NCBI GenBank assembly: GCA_030612385.1
Contig: JAUWNZ010000008.1
Span: forward strand, 1-14,600
DNA: 14,600 nucleotides
Direction: 5' to 3'
Source of the DNA: Pseudomonadota bacterium
GTDB lineage: Bacteria > Desulfobacterota > Syntrophia > Syntrophales > JADFWA01
In this document: in pieces, positions 1-14,600 of the stretch
Layout: every line of letters begins with the position of its first letter
How positions within the stretch are numbered: the first letter of the stretch is position 1
Translations under genes and position numbers: made by a program
The notes under the pieces: model-generated
The model's database searches: none
What the model saw: the letters and a program-made list of their open reading frames with translations, nothing else
What the model was told of the DNA's origin: nothing

Positions 1-197
1 CCTCCAGAGACAGACTTAGCCTTAAGCACTTCGCTCTCAAGAGCCTGAATTTTCTCCTGTTGAAAAGCAGATGTCCTTCCCTGCTGCTTCTCTTTGATCG
101 CATACTCTCCTATCCACAAAACCAAGTCATCAGTTGTAAGGGCAGGTATAGACTTAGACTTCTGCCCCATTTCAGCTTCTTGCCAATTATCTTCCAT
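1..197 (-). CDS. N-terminal part of an unrecognised protein (runs off the window)
   Basis: The ATG at 197 shares its A with the TGA of the fibre gene (TGATG), and the frame stays open to the left edge for 65 residues. It begins MEDNWQEAEMGQK, has LTTDDLVLWIGEYAIKEKQQ and continues as a charged helix FQQEKIQALESEVLKAK, which looks like a coiled coil. Small coiled-coil proteins often follow fibre genes and may be fibre chaperones or lysis-region proteins, but this piece is not enough to decide. Confidence 0.65.
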   Translation of the reverse strand, partial: MEDNWQEAEMGQKSKSIPALTTDDLVLWIGEYAIKEKQQGRTSAFQQEKIQALESEVLKAKSVSG

Positions 198-1159
198 CAC
201 CAAATTCCTCCATCCACTGTCATTTCATCGCTTAATATTGTAGCAGCAACATTAGGGAAGGTATAAGTTCTTACTTCGGAAGGGCCGGCAACTGTAAAAT
301 AAGCACTTCCTGTTCCACCCTTAGCAACAGGTATAGCTGTAGCGTTCCACTCACCTGTTGTGATAGTGCCAAGGGTAACTATTGAAGCCTGCCCTACATA
401 AGCTGCATCAATATCTATACTATCAGCGTTTGCAACTATACGATTTGGAGTACCTATAACATCAAGAGTACTGCCTGTCTTTGTTAAACCAGTCCCAGCT
501 ACTATCTGTCCAGCACCAGTAAATTGTGTGAACGCAAGAGCCGTAGTATCAACTGTAATGGGATCATTAGTTGTTAAGACGAACCCAGCATCGGCATTCG
601 CTGTACCCTCTTCCACAAAGGCGTACATTCCAGCAGTTACTTCTGCGTCAGCATCAGCATCTATAGCTCTTGTTAAGACAAAAGCAACTTCTGTTGTTCC
701 CTCAGTAGTAACTTTGTAAATACCATTGTCAGCTCCTGTTGCTTGATTCTTAACAAGAATACGGTCGTTCAGGACTGTAGCAACACCATCAACCGTTAAG
801 ACTCCCGCTGCATTTGCCGTTAATGTCTTACCAATTCCACTACCCTCTGCTGTAACAGCAGGCAATGCAGCTGCTGTCGCTACATCTACGGAATCCTTAA
901 CATCTACTCCACCTGCTAATGCATCAGCATACTGCTTCGTTACAGCGTGTAGAGCACTTGTTGGGTCAGCATGGAGGGTTAAAAAGTCAGTTAAAGACCC
1001 ACCAGACAATTTTAAAAAGTCCGCTTCACCTACCAGTTTTGATACGCCTCCCTGACCTACATACAGTTTGAAAGTATCAGTAGTCCAACCAGGTTCTCTG
1101 TCATTTAACGCTGGCAGTCCTGATGCTATTCCGCCTTTCACTTTTATAAGATTCGCCAT
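197..1159 (-). CDS. Tail fibre protein with Mtd-like N-terminus and KDSV/NGIY shaft module
   Basis: A 320-residue protein assembled from common phage fibre modules. Residues about 5-43 match the appendage N-terminal pattern (GGIASGLPALNDREPGWTTD then KLYVGQGG), as in tropism-determinant proteins. Residues 58-90 have FLTLHADPTSALHAVTKQYA and GGVDVKDSV. Residues 130-215 have NDRILVKNQATGADNGIYKV, LTRAIDADADAEVTAGMYAF, VLTTNDPITV and FTQFTGAGQI. Later come AGTGLTKTGSTLDV, WNATAIPVAKGGTG and a DGGIW end. These proteins normally form trimeric shafts. No catalytic or sugar-binding site is evident, so it may be a shaft or adaptor for a tip protein encoded farther downstream. AAGGAG precedes the ATG by 8 bases. 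The stop TGA shares its A with the ATG of the next gene. Confidence 0.75.
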   Translation of the reverse strand: MANLIKVKGGIASGLPALNDREPGWTTDTFKLYVGQGGVSKLVGEADFLKLSGGSLTDFLTLHADPTSALHAVTKQYADALAGGVDVKDSVDVATAAALPAVTAEGSGIGKTLTANAAGVLTVDGVATVLNDRILVKNQATGADNGIYKVTTEGTTEVAFVLTRAIDADADAEVTAGMYAFVEEGTANADAGFVLTTNDPITVDTTALAFTQFTGAGQIVAGTGLTKTGSTLDVIGTPNRIVANADSIDIDAAYVGQASIVTLGTITTGEWNATAIPVAKGGTGSAYFTVAGPSEVRTYTFPNVAATILSDEMTVDGGIW

Positions 1160-1913: not shown

Positions 1914-4124
1914 TTACGTCTCCCAAGGGGTTGCCTGCCCCCAGTAAGTTGCCCCGTCCCAGTAGAAGGAGACAATTATCGTTTTCGCTGCTATTCCGTC
2001 CGATATAGCGGGTGCAGTGCCGAGAAATGTCACGGTGTCAGGCCATGTGATATCACGCCCTCCTTCCGCATCCTGTTTAATCGCCAGGAGGAGAGTCGTG
2101 ACCTTGTTTGTGGGCGCTGTAAAGGCCAGGAATTCATTGTTTCCCCCGAAGGTAAACCGCCACGTATTTCCCGTGCGCCAGTCGATGGTCGTACTCCCGC
2201 CCGATCCGGTCACTGCCCGGAGGGTAAAACCCGCTGCATGTGTCAGAAAGTTAAATTCACCTCCCGCTTCAGGCGTAATATCCTCGACTACGTTTCCCAG
2301 CGCGCCCATCACACTTCGCCCTGCAGCGGCATTTGCGGCGGCAATCAGACTCTTACCGAATGCCGTGCAAACAAGTTCCTCGACTGCCCCGGGGCCGGCT
2401 GATGCCCTGCCTAACACAACATCAGTGGCTATAGTGGTGATTATCCCGCTCGGCATAGTAATGTTGCCGTTGGCATCCCAGGAGATTTCAGGGGCTCGGC
2501 CAATATGACCGCTGCCGTCGAAGTCGTAGGAAACATTAATCAGGTTTTCGGCATTAAACGATGTCCCGGCAAACGATCTCAAACCCTGCGCAACGGGTGA
2601 GACTGCCTGAGCGGCCGGGTCGGCAATAGTTTGATCGTCGAATATGTGTGAATCGTACGCCTCACACCGCATGGAGTAGCCGGCAAGCTTTTTTGTTGTC
2701 GATATAATACGATACTCGCTGGCTGTCAGAGCTCTGGCCGGAGAGGTGATCTCTATTATCTCCCCGCATTTCCGATCCTTCGCCTCCAGGTCACAATTCA
2801 TCGAGATTTTTTTATCTGCATATTTCTGACGGCCGTAGATGTACGACAAGACTTTTTTGGCTGTGACATTTTCGGTCACAAAGGGCATTAGATATGCTTT
2901 GTCCGCCCCGAAATCCTGTATGTCCAGATTAATCTCTTTCTGATCATATTTGATGACGCCCCTTTTCGTCGAGGCATCCACCGGCGTTATGCTCATGGAT
3001 GTAATCTCGCAATTATCGAAATATCCGTCGTGTTCGCCGAAGGATGCGACAGAACTTTGCTCGCCATCGACGGTGATCTCCCATTTACCGGTTTTATTGA
3101 GCTCGATCGAGCTCCGCGCGACAAAAAGAAGGTCATCCAGGACATCGCGTGTCTTCTGCTGTGCCGTGACTGCCCCATCACACATCCAGGACGCAACGGG
3201 CAAGGCCGCGGCGGCCGCGGTGAAACTATCTGTATCGACGTCCTGGCCTAAACCCCAGGTTGTATTGGTCAGGAGTTCTTTTATGACATTTGCAAAATTT
3301 CTTTCGGCGGTTTCGCCGTCCATCTCCATGCCCTTGACATCAGCCGTGAGGGTATAATATCCGCCGGAAAAGTCTTTCTGCTCCTTCACAAATCGAAGGA
3401 AAGCATATCCCGGATATGGTGACACCTGCGATCCATCATAGAATATATATTCGGATGTGTTAACGAGAACGTCCTTTCGCTTTACGCCCCTGTTATTTTC
3501 ATGGTCGATCCATAATGATTCCAGCGTCCCGTAGCCGATGAGATAATCATAATGATCATCGGCCAGGTTATTCTGAATATTTCTAAGGGGAATATCCTTT
3601 GCGTGTCCGAAACAGATCGATATCGGAAAACCTATATCGAGAGCCATTGTCGTAAATTCATCGGTTGTGACTACTGCGGGGGGTAACAATGTTTCCAGAC
3701 TCTCGTCGTCGCGCAGATTAACAGCAATAGAAAAAACGTCATCCATATTATAGCCTGTGATCTTGCCGCGGGCCAGTAATTGCAGATCCTCATCCCTGAT
3801 CAGCACCTCTCTCCCTCGCAGTTCATCGGCGGCCGTTATTGTCTCCCAGGTATCATCGAGGCCGTTATCGACATTCATAAGCCGGATATGAACCGGTTCC
3901 GTCTGCTCGACACCAAAAAATACATCGGGGAGCGATTTTGTGATTTCAATATCTTCCATAAGGTCACCTCGATACGGTATCGATGCGGATATCCGCCTGT
4001 AGCTGCCATCGGAGGTTATCCTTTTCTTTCCATCGGAGGTTACCCGGTAACCGCCTGCAGTAACATCCCGCAATGCAAAACTAAGGGCACCGGAATCCAG
4101 CACTATATCGACGAGTAAATTCAT
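1914..4124 (-). CDS. Tail-tip hub/baseplate protein fused to tail-fibre-like domains
   Basis: A 736-residue protein. Residues about 1-500 look like a tail-tip hub: YRGDLMEDIEITKSL (51-65), VEQTEPVHIRLMN, ADELRGREVLIRDEDL (99-114), IPLRNIQNN, GYGTLESLWIDHENN and a cysteine-bearing region at about 443-487. Before this, residues 26-40 repeat the ITSDG unit (YRVTSDG, KRITSDG). Residues about 530-736 are typical of fibre shafts and tips: VVLGRASAGPGAVEELV (569-585), AAGRSVMGALGNVVED and a C-terminal domain with KVTTLLLAIKQDAEGGRDI, WPDTV and YWDGATYWGQ. The hub part would seal the tail end, and the fibre part would reach out for attachment or later fibres. The start overlaps the previous stop (ATGA). 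The stop TAA is directly followed by the next ATG. No protease or muralytic motif was seen. The exact hub subfamily (Tal or J type) is unresolved. Confidence 0.7.
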   Translation of the reverse strand: MNLLVDIVLDSGALSFALRDVTAGGYRVTSDGKKRITSDGSYRRISASIPYRGDLMEDIEITKSLPDVFFGVEQTEPVHIRLMNVDNGLDDTWETITAADELRGREVLIRDEDLQLLARGKITGYNMDDVFSIAVNLRDDESLETLLPPAVVTTDEFTTMALDIGFPISICFGHAKDIPLRNIQNNLADDHYDYLIGYGTLESLWIDHENNRGVKRKDVLVNTSEYIFYDGSQVSPYPGYAFLRFVKEQKDFSGGYYTLTADVKGMEMDGETAERNFANVIKELLTNTTWGLGQDVDTDSFTAAAAALPVASWMCDGAVTAQQKTRDVLDDLLFVARSSIELNKTGKWEITVDGEQSSVASFGEHDGYFDNCEITSMSITPVDASTKRGVIKYDQKEINLDIQDFGADKAYLMPFVTENVTAKKVLSYIYGRQKYADKKISMNCDLEAKDRKCGEIIEITSPARALTASEYRIISTTKKLAGYSMRCEAYDSHIFDDQTIADPAAQAVSPVAQGLRSFAGTSFNAENLINVSYDFDGSGHIGRAPEISWDANGNITMPSGIITTIATDVVLGRASAGPGAVEELVCTAFGKSLIAAANAAAGRSVMGALGNVVEDITPEAGGEFNFLTHAAGFTLRAVTGSGGSTTIDWRTGNTWRFTFGGNNEFLAFTAPTNKVTTLLLAIKQDAEGGRDITWPDTVTFLGTAPAISDGIAAKTIIVSFYWDGATYWGQATPWET
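4009..4043 (-). repeat. Short ITSDG-type repeat at the hub N-terminus
   Basis: The 13-base word CCATCGGAGGTTA (plus strand) occurs at 4009-4021 and again at 4031-4043, 22 bases apart. It encodes the repeated VTSDG/ITSDG pentapeptide in the hub protein. Similar SDG repeats occur in other phage tail proteins. Confidence 0.55.
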
Positions 4125-4915
4125 ACTAGCTCTTTAAGCCGGAGTGAGCCGCCTGAGACTATATCCATATAAATCAAGGTCCCGCTGTAATGATCGTCAC
4201 GATAACAGAGGTATGCCCGAGAGGTATCGGATTCATTCTCGAAGAAGACCAGCTCGTCGGCGATTCCATAGGTATTCAGAGTGGTCAGGTCGGATTCCTT
4301 GTTGGTATTTCTGCTGCCGAATTGTAATGTCGCCACCCATTGTATCTCCCCATATTCCACCCTCTGCCGATGCTTCGATCTCATGGATATATCGCTATAT
4401 GACTGCTCGGCTCCTCTCTCGTAACCGTAGGACATATTTCGCGTGAATGTATCCACCGAACCCAGGATCACGACCGTGCCGATCTCCCATTTTGCGATGT
4501 AGCTGCCGACTGCGGCGGCGGCGGCCGGTACTATTACAGCTAGCCAGCGATAACTGAAGGCGGTCAGCGGGATAAAAACCTTGTAGCGGCCAACCTGTGC
4601 ATCCAGAGAGACGGCAATCTCACTACTCGAGAACGAGGCTCCCGACCAGTCTGTCCCGAGATCGGAGGCATGGCCCTTGATAACAACCTTATCGAAGTTA
4701 ACATCGTTCAGGAAAACGGCCACAACGGTTTTAGCGCTGGAAAGATCGAATCTGAGCACTGGATTGCTATCGGATTTTGTGAGGGCGTTCATTCTCCAGC
4801 GTCTTTTCAGACGGGTCAGATCCATCACGTTCTTTTTTGCGTACCCCGCTGTCGTAGATTGTGCCGTTACCTCGGAATCGGCTACGGAGATAATGTCGTT
4901 TGAGAAGATGATCAT
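4121..4915 (-). CDS. Distal tail-like protein with a discoidin/galactose-binding-like N-terminal domain
   Basis: A 264-residue protein directly after the tape measure gene, where siphoviruses encode the distal tail protein that joins tube and tip. Residues about 1-150 resemble a discoidin-type jelly roll: RWRMNALTK, NPVLRFDLSSAKTVVAVFLND (about 51-71), VVIKGHAS, then YRWLAVIVPA and YIAKWEIGTVVILG. The C-terminal part (about 155-264) has SYGYERGAEQSYSD, VEYGEIQWVATLQFG and a strand-rich end LRLKELV. Discoidin-like folds commonly bind carbohydrate, so a host-glycan contact is possible, but no binding residues are certain. The ATG follows the tape measure TAA with no gap, with GAGAGGG upstream, and the gene ends in an ATGA overlap with the hub gene. 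The Dit role is inferred from position. Confidence 0.55.
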   Translation of the reverse strand: MIIFSNDIISVADSEVTAQSTTAGYAKKNVMDLTRLKRRWRMNALTKSDSNPVLRFDLSSAKTVVAVFLNDVNFDKVVIKGHASDLGTDWSGASFSSSEIAVSLDAQVGRYKVFIPLTAFSYRWLAVIVPAAAAAVGSYIAKWEIGTVVILGSVDTFTRNMSYGYERGAEQSYSDISMRSKHRQRVEYGEIQWVATLQFGSRNTNKESDLTTLNTYGIADELVFFENESDTSRAYLCYRDDHYSGTLIYMDIVSGGSLRLKELV

Positions 4916-7900
4916 TTACATCCCTCTCGCCGTGTTCTGTATCAGTTTCCGTCCGATCCCGCTTTTCATGAAATTCTCCAGCTCTTTCTTCACGACCGAC
5001 CCGGTTGCCTCTGGCGTCCTTGATTCTGAAATGGTTAGAACGAAGGAAATATCATTTTTCACCTCGGGCGAATCGTAATTTCTCTGGTGAACGGGGATGA
5101 CCTGCTCACCCTGATGGAGCTGGTACAGGCCTGTTTTCGGCACATAAGATGTCCCCTCCTGATAGCTCGATGCGCCGGCGATCAGATCACGTATATTGGT
5201 CAGTATGGATAATTGATCAAAGAGCAACTGTTCCTGACTCTGATATCCGGTGGCAATGCCCTTCAGTCCCTCCAGATTTTGCAGGACGTTGGCGTATATA
5301 CTTTGGTATTCCAACGACGGCCGCTGGTATATCTGCTCGGACATTTCCAGATATTTCCCGAAAAGTTCCCTCAATTCATTTATCGCGCCGATTTTCTCTT
5401 CAGGGGTCTCAAACCCGGAGATATACTGAGCAGCATTCCCGCCGGTCATTGTCTGGATTTTGTTTTGGACTATATCCATCTGCTCTTGCACATCCTGAGG
5501 ATTTGCCATGCTTGTCTTGATGCCGAATATTTGTTGCTCTATATCGTCGCTGACCCCGGCCCACATATCAACCAGTTTCTGTTGAGAATCCAGGATAGAT
5601 GTTCGCAGGGCATCGATCTCCCTGTCATGGATAGCGTCTATCTTGCTTCGAAGTACTTGTTGCGCCTCCGTCATATGCCCGCAGATCGAGTCGAACAATC
5701 GCACGCCCATATCCCGAAATCTCTGGATAGTATCATTCGTTTCTGTATCGATCGACCTTAGTTTCTTTTGAAAATCATTAGTATCTTCATAGTCAACCAT
5801 CACCTGATCATATAACTTCCTGATCGAAGCGCGTCTCGCAGTTTCCTCCTGTATCTCCGCAGCCCTTTTCTGCGCCGCTGCCGCTTCAGTCCGCGCCGCT
5901 GCCGCTCCTAACTCCGCGTCTCTGACCTGTGTTGCCAGATCGACAAGATGGCTGAAATCCTGGCCTGTATCCGCCGTCATCTGAGATATTTGAGCCAGCG
6001 TTTTAAGATATTCCGCTTCAATATTATATTTTTCTAATTGGTCTGGGGGCATAGTCAAAGATCGCAACCTGCCGGTCAGGGTATTCTCGGTCTCTGCCGC
6101 TATTTTTTTGATACTGGCATCGATATCTTCGAACAAATATTGAGCGGCCCGACCAATATCTCCAATACCGGCTGTAAACTCTTTCGTATCCAGGACATCT
6201 CTCATTTCGTCCCACGCTTCGATTTGGGCATCTCTCCAGGCGGCCACCTCTGTTATTTGCTGCTGATAGGGACTCGTTGTATGCTCTGTGATTATCCCTT
6301 TCGACTCTGCCAGTAATTGTTTTTTCGTTTCTTCGATTAGACGCTGTATGGCGGCCGCCTCCTTGTTTCGGAGTTCGATTATTACCCGTTCGGACACCCC
6401 TAATGCCCTTAATTGTTCCACTCCTTTATTAATGGTGTTCCGGATATCCAGAGTTTTTTGCTGGAATTCGGTCAGAGGATCGAACATGAGATTCAGGGAT
6501 GCAGTTATCTCATCGAAAGTGTTAAGTTTCTCGATTAATATTTGCATCTCCGAAGTAAACTTGCCCAGATCGGGGATTTCAACGTTACGCATATACCTCC
6601 TAATCTGTGTACCGTCATTTCCAGTCTGGCTGGTGCTGATCGTTTTTGTCGCCATCTCAGGTACGGAAAGCCCTATTGCCGCCGCTCTTTCCTGGAGAGT
6701 GGCGGCATATTGCTCCAGCGCCATCCCAAAAACAGGGGCCAGGGCTGCGTCGACCTGAGAGGGAATTTTTAAGAGTTGCTTTTCAAACGCTTTCTGCACA
6801 TTACCATGCGTTCGCACGTACGTACCGGTCAGGAATGTCGGCATATTTTTTCTTATATACTCCTGCTGATCCTCTCCCATCCGATCGTAGAGTTGCCTGT
6901 ATACGTCCAAAACGGTGTCGGTGACCTTCTGTACCACCTGCATCGTTTCCTTCTCATTTCCAACTCTTCTATTTTTTGAATAGGACTCAGTTTGCTTAAA
7001 AAGATCCTCTTCACCGGAGCTTACCTGGCTGGCCTGTTTGACGTATTGCCATTTTTTACCGCCACCGAATCCAACGAATTTTTTGACGGAGGAAAAGGCA
7101 TTGCTGATCCCACCCCACAGATCGCCGATCCCATCCCACAGATCGCTGATCCCTTTTTTGACCATGCCGAACAAATCGCCCGGCAGGCTTACCACGGATT
7201 TCACTGCCGTTACCGCAATATTGGGGATGCCTTTGACGAATGCGGCAATTATGTTCGGGATATACGAAACGAAAGCATTAATAATTTTAGGGATTGAATC
7301 GATAACGGCGGTTATGAGCTTTGGGATGGCCCGCATAATTCCATCGATCATTTGAGGTACGGCTTTTAGGAGTTTCGGGATCAGCTTTTCAACGATATCG
7401 CCGATACCTACAATCATATTGTATACAGAATCTATGAGATTATCTATAGCGGCCGTCATGTTTTTGCCAAAATCGCCGATTGTGTTAAATAAATCAGCGA
7501 CCATATTGGTTATATCGACAGGCAGCTTAACGATTTCCTTCAGGAGCTCGATTACGCCCTTGATCAGTCTGCCTATTTCCAGGGCAAGATTTGCGGCGCC
7601 GGCGATATTCCCTGCAATCCCGCTCGTAAGTTTGGAGGAGAGCCCTGCAATCTTTTTGGCCGTGTTCTCCGTTATCCCCGCCGATTTCTTCGATGCCTGT
7701 GTTACATATTTTTTCCAGTCTTCCCCCGATCCCTGGACGGCTGCCAGCCAGTCCTGAGCGCCCTTGATCAGGATCGATATTGTACCGCCCTGGCTCGTCG
7801 TTTCGGGTTTTTCAAGTTTTGCGATTTCTGCATTCAACCATGCCTTTAACGCGAGCTCTTTTTGGGCATATTCTTCTCTGTCCTTATGTTCCAGTTTAAG

Positions 7901-9139
7901 GGCGGCCTTTACCTGCTCCCCGTAATCCTGCAGTTTTTTGACCTGATATTTATAATTTCCCAAGACAAAACGCTGATATTTGTCAGAAAAGCCCGAGAGG
8001 AGCTTTTTAGCGGCGGTAACCGCTTTCTTTTGTGCGTCCGTCAGTTTCCCGGTCAGAACGATTGCTGTTTTAGTTGCCTTACCCATCTTGTCGATGGCAC
8101 CCTCTATTTCTGCCGGCCGGTGTATCTTGCCCCGGAAAACAGCAACTCCTTTGTTAACATCTTTTACTATTCCGAGGAGTTTCTGGGCTCGATCAATATC
8201 ACCTTGTGAAATAGCACTACGAAAACCTGCCGCCTTGAAAAGCCAGTCACATTTATCCTTAAATTCTGAAATTTTTTGAAGAAAACCTGCAATACTTTTT
8301 AATGAACTTGCAACGTTGTTCAGGTATTCGTTGATTTTTATTTTAATAAACTCTTTGTTTGCAACAACCCAGTTTGCCATCTTATTGGCAAGTTCGGTTA
8401 AATCGGGCAGCAATGCTATCCCGATTGTTCTTTTGACCCCTTCAAGCGCACCTTCCAAGTCTGTCAGGGCATCGGTAAACTCAGCAGCTTTTGTTGCGTC
8501 TTCTGTGCTCATGACAACCCCGAGCTCTTTTGCCTTTTCCATCAAATCTTCAATCCCTGCACTACCCAGTTTCAACATCGGCAATAACTGTGTTCCTGCT
8601 CTTGCACCAAATATCTCTGAAACATAAGCGGCCTTTTTCGTTTCATCTTTCATCATTCTGATCTTGTCGGCAACTTCAAGCATAAAATCAGCCGTGTCTT
8701 TCATTCGTCCGTTAGTATCGGTAACGGTTAAGCCCAAGGCATTTAATGTATCTTTTGCTGTGCCTGTATCGTTGGAGAAGTCAACCATGATCTTAGATAC
8801 ATATCTAAGACTCTTCTCTATTGTTTCTATATTTGAGCCTGAAATTGAAGCCGCATATCCAAGAGCTGAGAGCTTTTCGACGGCAACCCCTGTTCTGAGA
8901 GACATTTTATCAAAGGCATCACCGGTTGCAGCAGTATCTTTTACGATTTTCCGTAATATTGCTCCGGTAGCAAGAGCAGCAACTCCGGCCGCAGCAAACC
9001 CAACCTTGAAAGCCTTTTTCAAGTGAGCGCTCATTTTATCGGAAGCAGTTTTAACTTTCTTTTCCGCAGCATTCAGGTTTTTCTCGAGGTGTTTGTCGTC
9101 ACCCCTCAGCTCTACAAATGCAACACCTAATTGTGACAT
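4916..9139 (-). CDS. Tail tape measure protein
   Basis: A 1407-residue protein that would set tail length and enter the host envelope with the DNA. At the known rule of about 1.5 angstrom per residue it predicts a tail of roughly 210 nm. The N-terminus (LGVAFVELRGDDKHLEKNL) and about residues 70-260 match the tape-measure core pattern, with FGARAGTQLLPMLKLG. A hydrophobic stretch at about 505-660 includes an 11-residue proline ladder. Most of the rest is helical and charged, with an Ala/Arg/Glu-rich coiled segment near 1080-1110. The C-terminus has the familiar YVPKTGLYQLHQGEQVIP (about 1332-1349). I see no peptidase or lysozyme motif. The ATG at 9139 is preferred over the in-frame TTG at 9166, because protein similarity begins at MSQLGVAFVEL and the TTG lies inside the chaperone gene without a Shine-Dalgarno. 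The stop is TAA, directly followed by the next ATG. Confidence 0.92.
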   Translation of the reverse strand: MSQLGVAFVELRGDDKHLEKNLNAAEKKVKTASDKMSAHLKKAFKVGFAAAGVAALATGAILRKIVKDTAATGDAFDKMSLRTGVAVEKLSALGYAASISGSNIETIEKSLRYVSKIMVDFSNDTGTAKDTLNALGLTVTDTNGRMKDTADFMLEVADKIRMMKDETKKAAYVSEIFGARAGTQLLPMLKLGSAGIEDLMEKAKELGVVMSTEDATKAAEFTDALTDLEGALEGVKRTIGIALLPDLTELANKMANWVVANKEFIKIKINEYLNNVASSLKSIAGFLQKISEFKDKCDWLFKAAGFRSAISQGDIDRAQKLLGIVKDVNKGVAVFRGKIHRPAEIEGAIDKMGKATKTAIVLTGKLTDAQKKAVTAAKKLLSGFSDKYQRFVLGNYKYQVKKLQDYGEQVKAALKLEHKDREEYAQKELALKAWLNAEIAKLEKPETTSQGGTISILIKGAQDWLAAVQGSGEDWKKYVTQASKKSAGITENTAKKIAGLSSKLTSGIAGNIAGAANLALEIGRLIKGVIELLKEIVKLPVDITNMVADLFNTIGDFGKNMTAAIDNLIDSVYNMIVGIGDIVEKLIPKLLKAVPQMIDGIMRAIPKLITAVIDSIPKIINAFVSYIPNIIAAFVKGIPNIAVTAVKSVVSLPGDLFGMVKKGISDLWDGIGDLWGGISNAFSSVKKFVGFGGGKKWQYVKQASQVSSGEEDLFKQTESYSKNRRVGNEKETMQVVQKVTDTVLDVYRQLYDRMGEDQQEYIRKNMPTFLTGTYVRTHGNVQKAFEKQLLKIPSQVDAALAPVFGMALEQYAATLQERAAAIGLSVPEMATKTISTSQTGNDGTQIRRYMRNVEIPDLGKFTSEMQILIEKLNTFDEITASLNLMFDPLTEFQQKTLDIRNTINKGVEQLRALGVSERVIIELRNKEAAAIQRLIEETKKQLLAESKGIITEHTTSPYQQQITEVAAWRDAQIEAWDEMRDVLDTKEFTAGIGDIGRAAQYLFEDIDASIKKIAAETENTLTGRLRSLTMPPDQLEKYNIEAEYLKTLAQISQMTADTGQDFSHLVDLATQVRDAELGAAAARTEAAAAQKRAAEIQEETARRASIRKLYDQVMVDYEDTNDFQKKLRSIDTETNDTIQRFRDMGVRLFDSICGHMTEAQQVLRSKIDAIHDREIDALRTSILDSQQKLVDMWAGVSDDIEQQIFGIKTSMANPQDVQEQMDIVQNKIQTMTGGNAAQYISGFETPEEKIGAINELRELFGKYLEMSEQIYQRPSLEYQSIYANVLQNLEGLKGIATGYQSQEQLLFDQLSILTNIRDLIAGASSYQEGTSYVPKTGLYQLHQGEQVIPVHQRNYDSPEVKNDISFVLTISESRTPEATGSVVKKELENFMKSGIGRKLIQNTARGM
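7106..7153 (-). repeat. 21-base tandem repeat, two copies plus a partial third
   Basis: Copies at 7106-7126 and 7127-7147 match at 19 of 21 bases, and GATCCC starts a third copy at 7148. It encodes the repeated heptapeptide in GISDLWDGIGDLWGGIS within the tape measure protein, in frame, so unit gain or loss would change length by seven residues. Confidence 0.7.
7217..7363 (-). repeat. Five 11-residue proline-ladder repeats in the tape measure protein
   Basis: The pairs AVP, AIP, SIP, YIP and GIP occur exactly 11 residues apart (prolines at 595, 606, 617, 628 and 639 counting from the ATG at 9139). Hydrophobic residues lie between them (for example KLITAVID and KIINAFVS). An 11-residue period is a known feature of tape measure proteins and fits packing along a straight tube. 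Confidence 0.75.
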
Positions 9140-9143
9140 AAGA

Positions 9144-9934
9144 TCACTCGTTTTTTTTAAGCTCAAGGCTAAGCATATGATTTGACAGATTCAATACGCT
9201 TTCAAAAGCTCTGATTCTATCTATTATTTTATATTCATCAATTATTTTCCAGATAGCCATCTGATTGATGGACACGGGGCCGCTAAATCCCATAATATAT
9301 TGAGAGCGAACAACTTGGTAGGCAAAAACTATCTCTTCATTTTCGCTCAATAATTCAGGCATACAAGTTGAGCAGGGAGGATCATCTGATGATTCATATA
9401 TCCCCCCGCCCGCCAACTTCCTTTTTAGAGCCTCTTCATAGATTTCCCTGCATTGCACACAAGAAGGACGGTGAGGGTCAAAGAATCTTTCTGTGTACGC
9501 TATGCGTTTTTTTCAAGGGTCTTTTCGTGCTCCTTCTCAATTTCGTCTATTCGCTCAAGACATTCTGCCCAGAAAAACATAAAGGAGCCACTTTCATGCA
9601 TGAGCTTGTTTTTATTTTCCTTCGTGCACGGTACAGGATCATTGCTCATATCTAAGAGCTTCCAATCCACAACGGTATAGTCCCATATCATTTCATCTCT
9701 GACCTGCGGATCCGTAACTTCAACCCATTCAACTCTTTGCGGAGGGATTCGTCTATTTATCTTCCCTTTTTCATCCGTAGGTTGTTTAAATGCAACCTGT
9801 TTTTTTTCTGTTGCTATATTTATTTCTTTTAAGGCTGCTTGATTTAAGCTTCGGATACAAACACATTCTTCAGCTCCATCTTCGGGGTAATCAAACCAGA
9901 TCCCCGGATTTAAATTTTCAAGATCGATAGGCAT
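9144..9934 (-). CDS. Tail assembly chaperone, long form made by -1 frameshift (gpGT-like)
   Basis: Join in transcription order 9934-9506 then 9506-9144, with base 9506 read twice. The product is 263 residues: 143 from the first frame, then 120 from the -1 frame. After the slip the frame reads CGC ATA GCG and continues without a stop as RIAYTERFFDPHRPSC into the second ORF. That ORF has no Shine-Dalgarno of its own before its only early start-like codon (GTG at 9458). The fusion has four cysteines in two CxxC pairs (C159/C162 and C188/C191). The first cysteine is lost if translation starts at the GTG, so the fusion is the sensible product. The C-terminal half is helical (EIVFAYQVVRSQYIMG, IWKIIDEYKII). 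The family role, known from lambda gpG/gpGT, is chaperoning the tape measure and recruiting tube subunits. The gene ends in TGA, 4 bases before the tape measure ATG. Confidence 0.8.
9450..9505 (-). promoter_or_regulatory. Candidate stem-loop downstream of the frameshift site
   Basis: GTACACA (9498-9492) can pair with TGTGTGC (9461-9455) as 7 pairs, one of them G-U, across a 29-base loop. GCAT (9505-9502) can also pair with ATGC (9453-9450) to extend the base. The upper stem starts 7 bases after the slippery heptamer, a usual distance for a pausing structure. The long loop makes its stability doubtful, and this was found by eye without folding. Confidence 0.35.
9500..9934 (-). CDS. Tail assembly chaperone, short form (gpG-like)
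   Basis: A 144-residue protein in the position of lambda gpG, between tail tube and tape measure genes. Visible features are GIWFDYPEDGAEECVCIRSL near the start, a central EWVEV...WDYTVVDWKLLD, PVPCTKENKNKLMHESGSF (about 102-120) and a charged helix ending EKEHEKTLEKNA. This layout is common in phage tail assembly chaperones that coat the tape measure before the tube forms. AAGGAG precedes the ATG. The last codons GAA AAA AAC hold a slippery heptamer, and the frame ends with TAG (9502-9500) two codons later. Ribosomes that slip back one base make the longer fusion listed separately. Confidence 0.75.
   Translation of the reverse strand: MPIDLENLNPGIWFDYPEDGAEECVCIRSLNQAALKEINIATEKKQVAFKQPTDEKGKINRRIPPQRVEWVEVTDPQVRDEMIWDYTVVDWKLLDMSNDPVPCTKENKNKLMHESGSFMFFWAECLERIDEIEKEHEKTLEKNA
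9506..9512 (-). promoter_or_regulatory. Programmed -1 ribosomal frameshift site, A AAA AAC
   Basis: The minus strand reads GAA AAA AAC in the zero frame, an exact X XXY YYZ heptamer in the right phase. It lies two codons before the TAG of the first chaperone ORF. The -1 frame is open for the next 120 codons into the second chaperone domain. An AAGGAG sequence at 9535-9530, 17 bases upstream, could act as an internal Shine-Dalgarno stimulator, but the spacing is longer than in dnaX. Confidence 0.82.
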
Positions 9935-9946
9935 ATTCTTCTCCTT

Positions 9947-10402
9947 TTAGTTTAGTCGCATCGCACCATAAACTTTGCCTTCAAATTCTATCTTGGCAAG
10001 ACCAGACATATCCAGTGAGATATCAGGCTCTTTTGTAATCTGTATGATGCTTGACGCAAGACATCCCTCGGGCAAGCCACCACCAGCACCGGTGGTATCA
10101 TTAGTCGCATAATAGCTTGTGCTGTCGATGTAAAAACGTAATGTTGTCAAATCGTCTTTAAGCCAATACGCGGCACGTATAGCATCCTGTCCGGTAGTGT
10201 CGTCTGCTTTATAGTTTCCGCTAAAACTTACAGCTCCTCCTGAGCGCAATCCACGAAGTCCTTGAGAGTCTTCATCGCCAAATTCCGTATCGTCTAACTC
10301 TTCATACGCTCCTCCGGTTATTTTCCAGCTACCCATTCCAACTATTGAGTGGTCACCTATCGTAACCTTTCCCAATGTCCCTGGTTTTGATTCTAAACTC
10401 AT
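9947..10402 (-). CDS. Major tail tube protein
   Basis: A 151-residue protein with the composition and order of siphovirus tail tube proteins: Gly/Thr/Ser-rich and beta-strand dominated. The pattern is GKVTIGDHSIVGMGSWKITG near the start, EELDDTEFGDE, SGGAVSFSGNYKADDTTGQDA in the middle and a closing strand LAKIEFEGKVYG. Hexameric rings of such proteins stack to form the tail tube around the tape measure. A loop at about 113-127 is rich in Thr, Asn and Gly and could face outward. An AGGAGGAGG ribosome binding site lies just before the ATG, the strongest in the window, as expected for a protein made in many copies. The ATG overlaps the stop of the MT-GT-GT gene (ATGA), and the gene ends in TAA, 12 bases before the chaperone gene. 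Confidence 0.82.
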   Translation of the reverse strand: MSLESKPGTLGKVTIGDHSIVGMGSWKITGGAYEELDDTEFGDEDSQGLRGLRSGGAVSFSGNYKADDTTGQDAIRAAYWLKDDLTTLRFYIDSTSYYATNDTTGAGGGLPEGCLASSIIQITKEPDISLDMSGLAKIEFEGKVYGAMRLN

Positions 10403-12243
10403 GATTCTTTCCTCCTCCTATGTATTTTATCAAAAATTTTATGTTCCGCCCACCCAGCGGCCATGAACGTCAGATGCGGTATTTCAATATTACAATCTGC
10501 TATAATAGGGATTTTTTTCTTCTTTAATTTATCACAAAATCCAATATCTTCGCCTATAGGCTTCCCTCGTTCATCTGTCCGCAGCTCGAAAGGCTTTTCG
10601 GGGAACATATTAATGAAGATTTGAGTATCGATTAAGATACACCCCGTGCCAACAAAATCCACGGATAGTTCTTTAGCAAAGCTACCGTCTGCGTTTTGTA
10701 TTTCTTCATCCGGCACATTTAAGAGTTTTCCTATTTCGCCGCGAAAGAGAAGTGGGTCAAAAGGTGGATACCGTCGGTGTACCTTCGTTCCTACTACCGG
10801 TTTTTTGTGAGCCAAAAGAGTTTCAATCATATCCGGCGTCTCGTATATTTGATCCGTGTCCATGAAAAGTAAATGAGTTGCTCCGATGTTTAAGGCTTTC
10901 AGAACGAGGCTGTTTCTAACCGCATCTATATTGCCAGGGAAATCAGGCGCTAAAACATCAAAAGACTTACACGTATTTGACGCCATGTAAGTAGTGATCA
11001 CTCTCATAGAGGAAAAGAAAAACTCATTAGAAACAAACTTGGCTGTCAATGGAAGTGCGACGGCCAACTTAGTCCCATATTTTCCCTCCATACGTTTTCT
11101 CTTGCGTGTGAAATAGGTTTTTTGATCATGGCTTGTATTCTCTTCAGAATAAACTCGCTGATATCCTTTGTCATATTCCGCCGTTAGGTTAATCGGATGG
11201 ACATGTTCGATTCTCGATTCTTCTGCGAAGACCCATCGGTCTAACTCTTCGGCGATATCTTTCAGTTCGAGATCACAGAACCCGTGTTTATATTCAGTTG
11301 AAAAAAAAGACTTATCTGGAAGATATTCCAACATTTTCTTGTGAGCCATCCAGTGCGCAAAAGGATTGCCTGCCTTTCCTTTTCCAATATCCTGTGTGTT
11401 CAACCCAACTATCCCCCAGCCGTCCGGGAAGGTCTCCATTTTCTCAATCGCCGCTTTTAAAAAGCCCGCTTCAGGAAGAGTGTCATCGCCTAAGAAAAGA
11501 ACTAGGTCATATTTGGCCCTTTTGGTTAGCTTTGCCACCATTTTAGGTGCGCCGATATGATCGATATCTTCTTCTGTCAATATCTCGTATTGATCTTCCG
11601 TAATACCTGTATGTCGCTTGATTGTTGCAATCTGTTCCGGGATTTTCTTTGGCCTGATTACTGGTATTACGATCGATGCTTTCAGCTCCTCCCAAAATGG
11701 TGCAGAGCTTATTTTCTCGGCAGATATCCTTCTGCCTACAAAATAGAGGTCTTTTGTCTTCGAGTTCAAAAAGAATTTAAAATCTTTTCCAAAGAAAAAT
11801 TCGATATCAATTATCTTTCGGATAAACTGCTTCGATAAGTTCTGATAATAATCATTAGTAAATGGCGCATCTTTCGGTGAACAATTTATAGTTCCGTGTT
11901 CAGCTCTTCCTTCTCCTGCACAGGTAAACAGGAATAATCCACCAGGTCTTAATAGATTTGATATGATATTTTTCAGACTATCTTTAATGTACCGATCATG
12001 TTCAAAGGCTTCGGTTGATATTACCGTGTCATATAATCCTTCTAACTCATGTGCTGGACAAACAATATCAACATTATTTCCTGGCCACAGGTCAATACCG
12101 GTATAATCACAGCCATCGAACAGATATCTATTATTTCCATTGACATCCAAAGACCCCACATCGAGCACCTTCTTCTCGTTAAAATCATCAGGAAAGCGTC
12201 CTTTAACTCTTTCGCAGAAATTCCTTTGTTCTTTATGTGCCAC
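10399..12243 (-). CDS. Three-domain protein: SAM methyltransferase + two GT-A type glycosyltransferase domains
   Basis: A 614-residue predicted cytoplasmic enzyme with no signal peptide or membrane segment. Domain 1 (about 1-172) is a class I SAM-dependent methyltransferase: motif I VLDVGSLDVNG (26-36), the acidic residue of GID (D51), YDTVISTEAFEH (71-82) and LRPGGLFLFT (98-107). Domain 2 (about 187-385) resembles a GT2 glycosyltransferase: ASIVIPVIRPKK at the start and the DxD-like metal site LFLGDDT (249-255). Domain 3 (about 391-614) resembles the GT-like proteins common in phages: VALPLTAKF, RNSLVLKALNIGATHLLF, MDTD (461-464), VGTGCILID (531-539) and GEDIGFC (564-570). A basic linker KRKRM joins 2 and 3. 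The gene sits between terminator and tube genes, starts at GTG 3 bases after a stop and ends in an ATGA overlap with the tube gene. A job in glycosylating virion or cell-surface components is inferred. The acceptor and sugar are unknown. Confidence 0.85.
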   Translation of the reverse strand: MAHKEQRNFCERVKGRFPDDFNEKKVLDVGSLDVNGNNRYLFDGCDYTGIDLWPGNNVDIVCPAHELEGLYDTVISTEAFEHDRYIKDSLKNIISNLLRPGGLFLFTCAGEGRAEHGTINCSPKDAPFTNDYYQNLSKQFIRKIIDIEFFFGKDFKFFLNSKTKDLYFVGRRISAEKISSAPFWEELKASIVIPVIRPKKIPEQIATIKRHTGITEDQYEILTEEDIDHIGAPKMVAKLTKRAKYDLVLFLGDDTLPEAGFLKAAIEKMETFPDGWGIVGLNTQDIGKGKAGNPFAHWMAHKKMLEYLPDKSFFSTEYKHGFCDLELKDIAEELDRWVFAEESRIEHVHPINLTAEYDKGYQRVYSEENTSHDQKTYFTRKRKRMEGKYGTKLAVALPLTAKFVSNEFFFSSMRVITTYMASNTCKSFDVLAPDFPGNIDAVRNSLVLKALNIGATHLLFMDTDQIYETPDMIETLLAHKKPVVGTKVHRRYPPFDPLLFRGEIGKLLNVPDEEIQNADGSFAKELSVDFVGTGCILIDTQIFINMFPEKPFELRTDERGKPIGEDIGFCDKLKKKKIPIIADCNIEIPHLTFMAAGWAEHKIFDKIHRRRKES

Positions 12244-12246
12244 AAC

Positions 12247-12666
12247 TTATCTCCCTTTTTCTAATAGACAATTATACTGCACACTGTATCCATGTATCGG
12301 CGGCGTTTGCTCTAAGTCATTAAAGGGTATTACAAAATCCCGCTGAAACTTGAGAGCATTCCATCCGCTTACCGTTAATTTGCAATTGTCTAAGACCGTT
12401 TTCAAATATCCTAAAATCGTTCCCGCCTCTAAGGCTGAATTGTTCTGTGAAAAAAGATTGAACTGGATTTTAAAGGTTTCGTGTTCATCTGTAAAATCCA
12501 AATCATTATTATTAGTCACAGGGAAATAAACTACATATGGATAAGCCGCTGATTGTGGCGCATTAAAAAGATATAACCGTCCACTAATTGCTGTATAGAA
12601 AGCTGAATGAACAGAGTCCGGTGCAGCTTTGAAGAGATTATAAATGCTTGCATAAAGTTTATTCAT
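12247..12666 (-). CDS. Tail terminator/completion protein (DUF3168-like)
   Basis: A 139-residue protein matching the pattern of the DUF3168 tail-completion family: a helical start (KLYASIYNLFKA), AAYPYVVYFPV, then ETFKIQFNLFSQNNSALEAG, a helix LGYLKTVLDN and a final strand YSVQYNCLLE. These proteins cap the head-proximal end of the tail tube and stop tube polymerisation. The start is ATG in an ATGA overlap with the previous gene, and the stop is TAA. In most siphoviruses the tube gene would follow at once. Here a 1.8-kb enzyme gene starts only 3 bases later and separates the two. Confidence 0.75.
   Translation of the reverse strand: MNKLYASIYNLFKAAPDSVHSAFYTAISGRLYLFNAPQSAAYPYVVYFPVTNNNDLDFTDEHETFKIQFNLFSQNNSALEAGTILGYLKTVLDNCKLTVSGWNALKFQRDFVIPFNDLEQTPPIHGYSVQYNCLLEKGR
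12251..12255 (-). promoter_or_regulatory. Ribosome binding site for the MT-GT-GT gene
   Basis: GGGAG overlaps the end of the tail terminator gene and lies 7 bases before GTG at 12243. It supports a GTG start at the beginning of the methyltransferase domain. Confidence 0.65.
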
Positions 12667-13079
12667 TTTAAAGCTTCGCTTGCTTTCACTTTTTCAAATG
12701 CCGGTCGCAAAAAAGGGTGCGGGCGGCATCCGTGTCCCAATTCTAACTTTTGGGCATACTCAACATTAGTGCCTATCGCTACAGTCATAGGTGTAGTGGG
12801 TTCGCCAACTCCATCGTCTCCTTTTGCCTTAGAGTTCACTTTGCCCTGATTTATTCCGCTTCCTGTCCAGTTTGTAGATATCGAAGCCCTGAGACGTCCT
12901 GTGTCGAGTGAAGGTGGTTTCCCGTAAGCAGCGGCGACATGCTTTCCGCCTATTGTTTTTTCAGTACTCAATAACCGTTTCGTTTCCGCCTCGACTTTAA
13001 ACCCTATTTTCTTCATATAATTTGTTGCTGGTTTCTGAATATCTTTGAGCAGTTGTTTATCGTTCCAAATTAGTTTCAC
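12663..13079 (-). CDS. HK97 gp10-like neck/tail-completion protein
   Basis: A 138-residue protein with a charged N-terminal helix (about 1-40) and the family's signature in the C-terminal half: LDTGRLRASIS (about 59-69), IGTNVEYAQKLELG (about 102-115) and HPFLRPAFEK. HK97 gp10-like proteins act in the neck or tail-completion step at the head-tail interface. The stretch after LRASIS (about 70-98) is Gly/Lys-rich and probably a flexible loop. The gene begins with GTG, sharing TGA with the upstream stop (GTGA), and has AAGGAA a few bases before it. It ends in an ATGA overlap with the tail terminator gene. The call is strong for the family and weaker for the exact mechanical role. Confidence 0.82.
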   Translation of the reverse strand: MKLIWNDKQLLKDIQKPATNYMKKIGFKVEAETKRLLSTEKTIGGKHVAAAYGKPPSLDTGRLRASISTNWTGSGINQGKVNSKAKGDDGVGEPTTPMTVAIGTNVEYAQKLELGHGCRPHPFLRPAFEKVKASEALK

Positions 13080-13396
13080 GATATTTCCTTCAGGGTAACC
13101 TTCAATGCTTTGTTTTGATTTGCTCCCATATTCTCAACCCAGATAATATCAAATTTTCTTGTGCCTAAAACGAATCTATCTCGTTCCGTGATCGTCGCGC
13201 CTACGGGGTAATCAATGTAAAAATTATGGGTTTGAATAATCGACTCCCTGTTCTGGCTTAGTTTTTCATCGCCACTGATTGAGGACAGAACACCTTTTAG
13301 CTTTCTTAGCCCCTGCCAATCCTGCGAGAAACCGCCAAGCCCATCAGGCGTTTCCGTATATCGCCTCAATCCCATTTGTGTTTTAGGCCCTATCAC
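13076..13396 (-). CDS. Head-closure protein (head-tail joining family)
   Basis: A 106-residue protein with the usual size and pattern of the SPP1 gp16/HK97-type head-closure family (Phage_H_T_join). It has an N-terminal strand pair with RRYTETPDGLGGFSQDW, a central KLKGVLSSISGDEKL segment, then HNFYIDYPVGATITERDRFV and a closing strand FDIIWVENMG. Family members sit below the connector and close the capsid exit until the tail docks. The start is GTG, overlapping the connector TGA (GTGA), with AGGAG 6 bases upstream. Its own TGA overlaps the GTG of the next gene. The family is recognised by pattern only, but the position between connector and gp10-like protein agrees well. Confidence 0.8.
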   Translation of the reverse strand: MIGPKTQMGLRRYTETPDGLGGFSQDWQGLRKLKGVLSSISGDEKLSQNRESIIQTHNFYIDYPVGATITERDRFVLGTRKFDIIWVENMGANQNKALKVTLKEIS

Positions 13397-14493
13397 AGAT
13401 ATCTCCTGTATCCATCCAGAATATCTTTTACTTTCGCCGGCAACGGTGTCTTCTCTAAAGTCAATCCAACGTCTCCCAAATGATATGACGCCACTCCAAA
13501 CTGTTCCTGTGCCCGCCGGTCAAATACGTCCTTGGTTAATATTTCTATGCACATCTTCAGGGACTCAGGCATATCTGTTGAGCTATATCCGGCTGTGTAA
13601 TCGACATAAACTATACTTCCAAATCTTGATAGCTCTATCTGTCCCTTGTCCGGCCAGACCTCATAATCATTCACACCATCATCCGGTATTTTTAAATATG
13701 CCCAATCACCGTTAATACAGCTTGCGCCAAACCGCTCTAACAATTCCGAAGATTTGTGGCTGGCATAAGCAGTTTCCGCAACGCCTGACCATCCGCTTCC
13801 TAAATCATTCACTGCCGCAATCAGGGTTGTCATAGTCGCATAGTCAGCAAAAGTGATTGTGCTGTCCGCCGTCCCGTCTTTGGTTAGGACAATCCCTGTC
13901 GATGTTACCGCCACGGTTGCAGTTGTATATTTTGAGGTATTACATATTCGCACAGCATCATCTGTGGCTATTGCTACCCTGGTTATATCTGTTATCGGAT
14001 ACTGGTTCAGGTTGATTATTTTCCGGCCTGAGTATTTTTCTGAATATGTCTTCCTTTCAAAAAAACGCCTGCAATAACCCTGAACCCATGACTCCACACT
14101 ATCTCTGAGTGTTTCAATTATTGCTGTGGGATCACCGGCCTCATTGTCGGATGTTATTGTCTGTGCGGCCGCTTCGTCTAAATCAAATCCGAACGTTAGA
14201 CCCGCATCACTACCCAAATGCGTATATGCAACCGTATGCCCTATACCAACATCTATCGTAAATTTGCGGATAGCATAAGTGACGGTTGACAAGATTGCGA
14301 AAGCAGTGTCTATTTTGCTTTGTAACTCAACTGCTAAGCCTGTGCCCTCATAACTTCCGTCCGCACATTCGATATCGGTTACAGTCCCACCATCATAGGC
14401 GAGCTTCAGAACGTTATTAGCTGCCGTGATTTCAAAGTAACCTTTTGAAATGTCCAGGAAGGCCAATATTTCACTATTAGAAACAATACTCAT
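13393..14493 (-). CDS. Head-tail connector (gp6-like adaptor) with inserted beta domains
   Basis: Predicted adaptor that forms a ring under the portal and starts the head-tail interface. The connector signature is in the middle and at the end: ETLRDSVESWVQGYCRRFFE (about residues 127-146), NLNQYPITDITRV, VYVDYTAGYSS and a helical end at 307-366. At 366 residues it is much longer than the usual 100-200. The extra length comes from a Gly/Thr-rich beta-type segment at about 20-120, split into the adaptor between its first helix (EILAFLDIS) and the EGYC-like helix, plus a second segment at about 188-250 with the DLGSGWSG motif. I chose the ATG at 14493, which shares its A with the upstream TGA. 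A GTG one codon earlier (14496) is possible. Its TGA overlaps the next GTG. The connector call is firm; the role of the inserts is unknown. Confidence 0.8.
   Translation of the reverse strand: MSIVSNSEILAFLDISKGYFEITAANNVLKLAYDGGTVTDIECADGSYEGTGLAVELQSKIDTAFAILSTVTYAIRKFTIDVGIGHTVAYTHLGSDAGLTFGFDLDEAAAQTITSDNEAGDPTAIIETLRDSVESWVQGYCRRFFERKTYSEKYSGRKIINLNQYPITDITRVAIATDDAVRICNTSKYTTATVAVTSTGIVLTKDGTADSTITFADYATMTTLIAAVNDLGSGWSGVAETAYASHKSSELLERFGASCINGDWAYLKIPDDGVNDYEVWPDKGQIELSRFGSIVYVDYTAGYSSTDMPESLKMCIEILTKDVFDRRAQEQFGVASYHLGDVGLTLEKTPLPAKVKDILDGYRRYL
13403..13407 (-). promoter_or_regulatory. Ribosome binding site fixing the GTG start of the head-closure gene
   Basis: AGGAG on the minus strand lies 6 bases upstream of GTG at 13396. 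This good spacing supports the GTG start over the in-frame ATG at 13375. Confidence 0.7.
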
Positions 14494-14600
14494 CACTCCA
14501 CCCAGATATGGAATGTTCCTGTTTTTGTATCTCCGCCGGAAGCGACTACAATTTTAATCCTTTCATTCGCAATCGGGATTCTATCTTCCACAGGCTCTCC
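14493..14600 (-). CDS. C-terminal end of an unrecognised phage structural-region protein (partial)
   Basis: An open frame enters from the right edge and encodes 35 residues before a TGA. It ends in KTGTFHIWVE. The stop overlaps the ATG of the connector gene by one base (TGATG), which is typical translational coupling. In siphovirus operons this slot, just upstream of the connector, often holds the major capsid protein or a small protein that follows it. The visible piece is too short to choose, and no family is recognised. Confidence 0.6.
   Translation of the reverse strand, partial: GEPVEDRIPIANERIKIVVASGGDTKTGTFHIWVE

Follow-up and report, generated by a model that had tools for sequence, protein, structure and literature searches.

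A methyltransferase and two glycosyltransferase domains fused in a phage tail operon: a candidate tail-tube decoration enzyme

What does a protein that joins a methyltransferase to two glycosyltransferase (GT) domains do in a phage tail operon, and on which molecule would it act? The question is raised by one gene in the window, by which we mean the whole 14,600-base stretch of DNA analysed here, an entire contig. The genome bin to which it belongs is rated 68.65% complete, and its rpoB resembles, among named matches, those of Thermodesulfobacteriota, Syntrophales and Proteobacteria MAGs; binning is not proof of host. The window holds no tRNA, and no Rfam match at gathering score was found within it.

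The fusion gene and its domains

The fusion gene occupies positions 10399-12243, as an earlier note on this DNA correctly had it, and lies on the minus strand, which that note did not give. The reading frame is intact over 614 codons and begins with a GTG located 3 bases past the terminator stop codon, with GGGAG just 5' of it. At the other end, the stop codon overlaps the ATG of the tail tube gene (ATGA), and AGGAGGAGG precedes the tube start.

The genes around it, all on the minus strand, start in order of transcription with a head-tail adaptor (13393-14496, 367 aa; PHROG 442, E 9.1e-16), head closure (13076-13396; Pfam Phage_HCP above the cut-off) and tail completion or Neck1 protein (HK97 gp10-like, 12663-13079; PHROG 5, E 1e-11). 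The tail terminator (12247-12666; PHROG 176, E 2.2e-8) forms the upstream border of the cassette and is followed by the fusion gene, the 151-aa tail tube (9947-10402), the tail assembly chaperone (9500-9934; PHROG 313, E 3.8e-4), a 104-aa ORF and the tape measure (4916-9166; PHROG 8462, E 1.4e-47). The head-tail adaptor (13393-14496) is long, and its family match is split into two stretches, suggesting an inserted domain. Two distal-tail proteins (1191-1598 and 197-1159, minus strand) share the C-terminal ending (V/T)VDGG(S/I)W.

Residues 1-176 (11716-12243, minus strand) form a class I SAM methyltransferase domain that matches PHROG 32762 (E 1.8e-35, residues 1-170) and scores 26.1 bits against Pfam Methyltransf_23, slightly below the cut-off of 27. 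The domain has the Rossmann-type fold, glycine-rich motif I (LDVGSLDVNG) and acidic motif II of this class, with D51 and the pair E81-H82, and G30, G36 and D51 are invariant in 34 methyltransferase domains. The AT-richest part of the composition profile (GC 0.367) is a 600-base segment at 11701-12300, mostly methyltransferase, which was perhaps added later.

The first glycosyltransferase domain (GT1, residues 188-390; 11074-11682, minus strand) matches a PHROG glycosyltransferase family (PHROG 14945, E 7.9e-7) and carries D253-D254, E326 and H347. Within a set of 203 sequences, H320, E326, H347 and D373 never vary, while 202 have D253 and D254 and the remaining one has a gap. PF00535 (GT family 2) does not match GT1 of the window and matches 14 of 25 aligned members. 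The second domain (GT2, residues 391-600; 10444-11073, minus strand) is Anp1/Mnn9-like and carries D462xD464, E565-D566 and H590. It scores 30.9 bits against Pfam Anp1 (cut-off 28.8) over a matched length of only 53 residues of the 263 profile positions, Anp1 is matched at E 0.01 by 23 of 26 relatives, and a profile match to Mnn9 has an E of 1.4e-5. D462, D464 and D566 are conserved in 218/218 sequences and H590 in 217/218. The conservation sets were picked by profile match, and catalytic roles are assigned by motif.

GT1 and GT2 each have a GT-A fold, a conserved acidic metal site, a further acidic pair and a C-terminal His, and both look active as far as their sequences tell. An AlphaFold model of the fusion protein (mean pLDDT 88.6, pTM 0.80; the methyltransferase is the weakest part), followed by fold comparison, recovered a methyltransferase and two GT-A folds. 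The earlier note had read one methyltransferase and two glycosyltransferases from the motifs LDVGSLDVNG, TEAFEH, LGDD (D253/D254) and MDTD (D462/D464); all four motifs are present, and profile, fold and residue conservation bear out each assignment. The median dN/dS of GT2 is 0.042 (10 usable of 60 pairs, some with dS near saturation), and the corresponding GT1 comparison yielded zero pairs of equal length in range. The best 19-residue hydropathy of the fusion protein is 1.5, indicating that it has no clear membrane stretch.

Among the closest known proteins, the Anp1/Mnn9 mannosyltransferase family (GT62) differs from GT2 in that only about 65 profile positions match and in that the window protein is without a clear membrane stretch. 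STIV A197, an archaeal virus protein for which we know of no function, shares 16% identity. Human LH3/PLOD and mimivirus R699 share 8-13% identity and have an rmsd of about 20 over both domains, which are thus placed differently; LH3 additionally has a hydroxylase domain.

Glycosyltransferases between terminator and tube

We collected related loci with several baits, keeping the best 80 of 129 confirmed matches for the GT bait, of 130 for a tube bait and of 491 for a further scan. The GT-bait scans gave 80 loci from virus contigs (the best 80 of 129) and 4 from genomes; many loci from the GT, tube and tube N-terminal-half scans share contigs. Tube and terminator profiles were trained outward from the window on these same loci, and PHROG provided an independent check on the tube, with phrog_158 found in 40/49 tubes. 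Among the GT loci (best 80 of 129, plus 4), a tube lies at most 400 bp downstream in 71 of the 78 with at least 900 bp of downstream sequence, a terminator lies at most 3 kb upstream in 49 of the 58 with at least 2.5 kb upstream, and both are near the GT in 42 of the 52 loci having both flanks.

After removal of exact duplicates and of loci without a recognised terminator or tube, all baits together yielded 88 distinct terminator-tube intervals: 57 from the GT bait, the window itself, and 30 reached through tube baits only. GT2 is present in 87 of them, a count that is partly circular since 57 of the 88 come from the GT bait; it is also present in 29 of the 30 found through tube baits only. 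In 86/88 intervals the gene that directly precedes the tube contains GT2. GT1 was detected by script in 74 intervals, with locus L132 a missed 75th, and this methyltransferase family in 28. GT1 and GT2 form one polypeptide in 70 intervals and separate genes in 4, and the triple fusion occurs in 4. Wherever two or more of these domains are present, the order is always methyltransferase, GT1, GT2.

Some intervals that depart from this pattern hold other sugar enzymes at the same position. In L192, the exception among the 30 tube-bait intervals, GT1-GT2 is replaced by a protein of 482 aa (2392-3840) whose two GT domains belong to other families, one being GT family 2 and the other TOD1/MUCI70 glycosyltransferase-like. 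The L192 tube (3878-4384) retains the loop described below, and its C-terminal tail, rich in Ser and Pro, may be another site of glycosylation. Thirteen intervals have GT2 and no GT1 by script; one of them, L132, has GT1 in an overlapping frame. In five others without GT1, an unrelated fusion of 416-418 aa, with a GT family 2 domain at the N-terminus and a methyltransferase domain at the C-terminus, precedes a free GT2 (L111 3953-5203, L126 3082-4332, L145 2602-3852, L186 1006-2259, L187 1727-2983). Here, then, two GTs and one methyltransferase have come together at the same address from other parts. In other phages, in short, GT2 and the tube stay paired and the remaining parts are swapped or split.

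Among the 69 other interval genes, 22 match Methyltransf_11, 10 Glycos_transf_2 and 6 Radical_SAM, with some proteins matching several families, and GT17, GT29, GT4, sulfotransferase and GDP-mannose dehydratase families have 1-2 matches each. Not every gene points to sugars: one in L005 resembles an HNH endonuclease, and several others match nothing. Individual cases include a sugar-nucleotide epimerase/dehydratase (L005 6988-7992), a weak sulfotransferase match (L053 1325-1825), a radical SAM gene (L056 6522-7181) and four other genes flanked by two GT2-type genes in L191. We discarded a tally of the intervals that hold some methyltransferase-like gene (47/88), because proteins of two domains, namely the GT-methyltransferases of 416-418 aa and the L192 protein of 482 aa, bridge the underlying similarity cluster.

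How common is the fusion itself? Among the best 120 of 369 homologues, 101 are GT1-GT2 alone, 11 add this methyltransferase in the same three-domain order and 8 add another N-terminal part; one of the fusion homologues is 98% identical and of equal length. Its recurrence in 11 of these 120 indicates that the fusion is no assembly accident. The methyltransferase tree calls for no fewer than 4 switches between the fused and the free form, implying that fusion was repeated or undone, and the nearest outside row to the clade of the window methyltransferase is a free gene (L080, support 91/90). The earlier note considered a single three-domain polypeptide at this site unusual. This holds for the triple fusion, which is rare (4/88 intervals), but not for the cassette, which is widespread in several arrangements. 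Since the triple order is one of these arrangements, the fixed address outweighs the fusion in importance. By tblastn, named phages give no full-length match (0/18 records cover 80%). Relatives are found on contigs whose MAGs bear the labels FCB group, Lutibacter, Uhrbacteria and Methanoperedens (an archaeon), labels that reflect binning and are no proof of hosts.

Co-divergence of GT2 with the tube and a candidate acceptor loop

We compared pairwise distances across 57 loci that encode GT1 and GT2 in one polypeptide, after removing near-copies at a tube distance of at most 10% (64 to 57). Distances correlate at 0.76 for GT2-tube, 0.33 for GT1-tube and 0.34 for GT1-GT2, with GT1-terminator at 0.66, GT2-terminator at 0.48 and chaperone-tube at 0.59. 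GT2-tube exceeds GT1-tube in 1000/1000 bootstraps and chaperone-tube in 993/1000. These correlations indicate that GT2 shares its inheritance with the tube, and GT1 with what lies upstream, placing a boundary within one polypeptide; a breakpoint between the two GT domains would give the GT1-terminator value.

Among the 27 loci of the commonest tube type the difference is small (GT2-tube 0.77, GT1-tube 0.71, chaperone-tube 0.72), and in the second type (18 loci) the values are 0.63, 0.34 and 0.58. Because GT2 and tube are neighbours, part of their co-divergence is explained by linkage. The observations say that GT2 and the tube are one unit of inheritance, which fits an enzyme-substrate pair without proving it.

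The tube of the window, the proposed acceptor, carries the loop RFYIDSTSYYATNDTTGAGGG at residues 89-109, and the corresponding loop of GT-linked tubes is rich in Ser, Tyr and Thr. A tube bait with a pattern in this loop (best 80 of 130) found this GT upstream in 76 of the 78 tubes called (L097 and L142, with no tube called, were left out), and the other two loci have a GT fragment at the contig end. This pattern is partly circular, so the search was repeated with the N-terminal half of the tube only, which gave GT2 in 54/58 loci by script. The four remaining loci comprise a script miss (L168), L192 with its near twin L193, both carrying a protein whose two GTs belong to other families, and L194, where the terminator adjoins the tube and the tube has a partial loop (FYVDGTYYY) with no GT.

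Across the 88 tubes, the loop motif, which was widened during the analysis, is present in strict form in 66, in looser form in 19 and in neither form in 3. As controls we took HK97-type or L194-type tubes, 98 loci that removal of 27 duplicates reduced to 71. None of these 71 distinct tubes has the loop motif, and scans with the gt1, gt2 and mt profiles found no match upstream of them; 5 of the 71 have short upstream sequence, and 8 of 13 L194-type loci have a 326-353-base gap before the tube. Terminator and tube, as annotated, adjoin each other in HK97 and in a Halomonas phage; in three other named phages a terminator-sized gene adjoins the tube. The control tubes belong to distant clades, and loop and GT may therefore merely share ancestry; we accordingly set the link between loop and GT aside as independent evidence and treat it as an association. 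The idea that an Ig-like extra domain replaces the glycan in HK97-type tubes was also withdrawn, since among five aligned tubes only that of HK97 has a long C-terminus.

Proposed function and its alternatives

Domains, position and co-divergence together make a dedicated virion-decoration enzyme, as the earlier note proposed, the reading best supported by computation. Of the targets that it named, the tube is favoured, and fibres or a host glycan less so, because GT2 lies in the last gene before the tube (86/88) and co-diverges with it. We consider it fairly probable that the fusion protein is a soluble trifunctional enzyme, produced together with the tail proteins, and that it decorates the tail tube of its own phage.

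What we infer, as follows, is the transfer itself, its acceptor, the order of steps, which sugars are joined and how, and the advantage for the virion. GT2, the constant part, would transfer the first sugar to the tube, the likeliest site being the conserved Ser/Tyr/Thr loop. GT1 would extend the chain with a second sugar, and the N-terminal methyltransferase would cap it by O-methylating the terminal sugar. The tube is likely modified in the cytoplasm, before or during assembly, given the lack of a clear membrane stretch and the start-stop overlap with the tube gene. The virion might gain shielding or host contact.

Mycobacteriophage virion glycosylation is a reported precedent, reportedly described by Freeman in 2023. 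In the available part of one account, cluster O mycobacteriophages carry an O-methyltransferase gene followed downstream by three GT genes, and these are said to modify capsid and tube (PMC11600133); the available part of another locates the virion glycans at C-termini (PMC12619734). On these partial texts, the likeness lies in glycosyltransferases and an O-methyltransferase in phage genomes with a glycosylated capsid and tail tube, and the differences lie in gene structure and site: separate genes there, a single fused gene here; C-terminal glycans there, and here a tube whose end lacks Ser/Thr richness and an internal loop as the proposed site. A tblastn search at E 1e-3 returned 18 phage records, 0 from Mycobacterium and 7, with partial matches, from Streptomyces, which leaves room for a distant relation.

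A parallel in architecture is PBCV-1 A064R, a protein of 638 aa. According to the available part of PMC9614988, it combines two rhamnosyltransferase domains with a methyltransferase, makes the methylated terminus of the capsid glycan, and has assay support for all three activities. As far as that part goes, both are single viral polypeptides with two GTs and one methyltransferase, and A064R adds two sugars to a virion glycan and O-methylates the last. The domain order is GT-GT-MT in A064R and MT-GT-GT in the window protein, and A064R comes from an algal virus and finishes an existing N-glycan, whereas GT2 of the window is proposed to start a chain. Our searches detected no sequence relation to A064R, and no chlorovirus molecule is named among the profile matches to solved structures.

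Virion glycosylation and the trio of activities are thus already known. As far as our searches show, what is new is the fusion in a bacterial virus, its constant position ahead of the tube, the pairing of GT2 with the tube, and the loop as a candidate site. The available portions of the open-licence literature, including PMC11600133, PMC10893344, PMC12691614, PMC12619734, PMC13313380 and PMC10848311, report neither an MT-GT-GT fusion nor a GT fixed before the tube gene.

Might the cassette decorate other parts of the virion, such as the major capsid protein or fibres, with the site before the tube being a tolerated late-operon insertion site? Mycobacteriophage GTs are said, in the available parts of PMC11600133 and PMC12619734, to modify the capsid besides the tube, and methyltransferases of the same supported clade in phiPsal1 and S-CBS4 sit beside two GTs near head genes. 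A tolerated insertion site would be expected to show more variation than GT2 does (present in 87/88 intervals, last before the tube in 86/88, found in 29/30 without the GT bait), and GT2 divergence tracks the tube (0.76) over the terminator (0.48). We regard this alternative as unlikely.

The largely independent divergence of GT1 and GT2 (0.34), with GT1 tracking the terminator (0.66), and the 13 intervals with GT2 and no GT1 by script (L132, with GT1 in an overlapping frame, among them) would fit a second alternative, in which only GT2 acts on the tube and GT1 and the methyltransferase act elsewhere, fused through convenience of the locus. This seems improbable given that the two GTs share one polypeptide in 70/88 intervals, that the methyltransferase tree requires at least 4 fusions or splits, and that another GT is fused to a methyltransferase in five intervals without GT1.

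Modification of a host surface glycan, in serotype conversion or superinfection exclusion, has in its favour 7 of the 69 other interval genes, which match a PHROG named GtrB-like O-antigen conversion. GtrB-type serotype conversion proteins typically have a membrane anchor; none was found in the fusion protein (best 19-residue hydropathy 1.5). Together with the absence of a Gtr-type neighbour among ten window proteins scanned, the overlap of the stop codon with the tube start and the co-divergence with the tube, this makes a host target quite improbable. Glycosylation of phage DNA at a modified base, a role for which DNA-hypermodifying phage GTs are known (reportedly from Pyle in 2024) and for which 1 of the 69 interval genes speaks (a 502-aa gene at L067 4452-5960 that begins like a methyltransferase and matches, over 77 residues, a PHROG named thymidylate synthase), is very improbable for a gene within a tail operon whose GT2 tracks the tube, and PF00303 (thymidylate synthase type) occurs in 0/15 related virus records, none of them rated 90% complete.

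Decoration of the tail tube thus stays our preferred reading, and we tentatively extend it to a possible obligate tail-tube glycosylation in a large, mostly uncultured siphophage group. GT2 and tube would be a co-inherited enzyme-substrate pair, with GT2 starting at a Ser/Tyr/Thr loop inserted in the tube. Genes upstream and fused domains alike (this methyltransferase and GT1, the unrelated GT-methyltransferase fusion, other sugar enzymes) would be an exchangeable module that varies the outer glycan. If this is true, the system would offer a compact enzyme-substrate pair with a directly testable acceptor, a possible tool for glycosylating proteins and, among bacterial viruses, a counterpart of the chlorovirus A064R enzyme. 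It would also supply an annotation rule, namely that the gene directly before this type of tube is a glycosyltransferase. Tail-tube glycosylation would then be built into a wide group of phages and be no occasional add-on.
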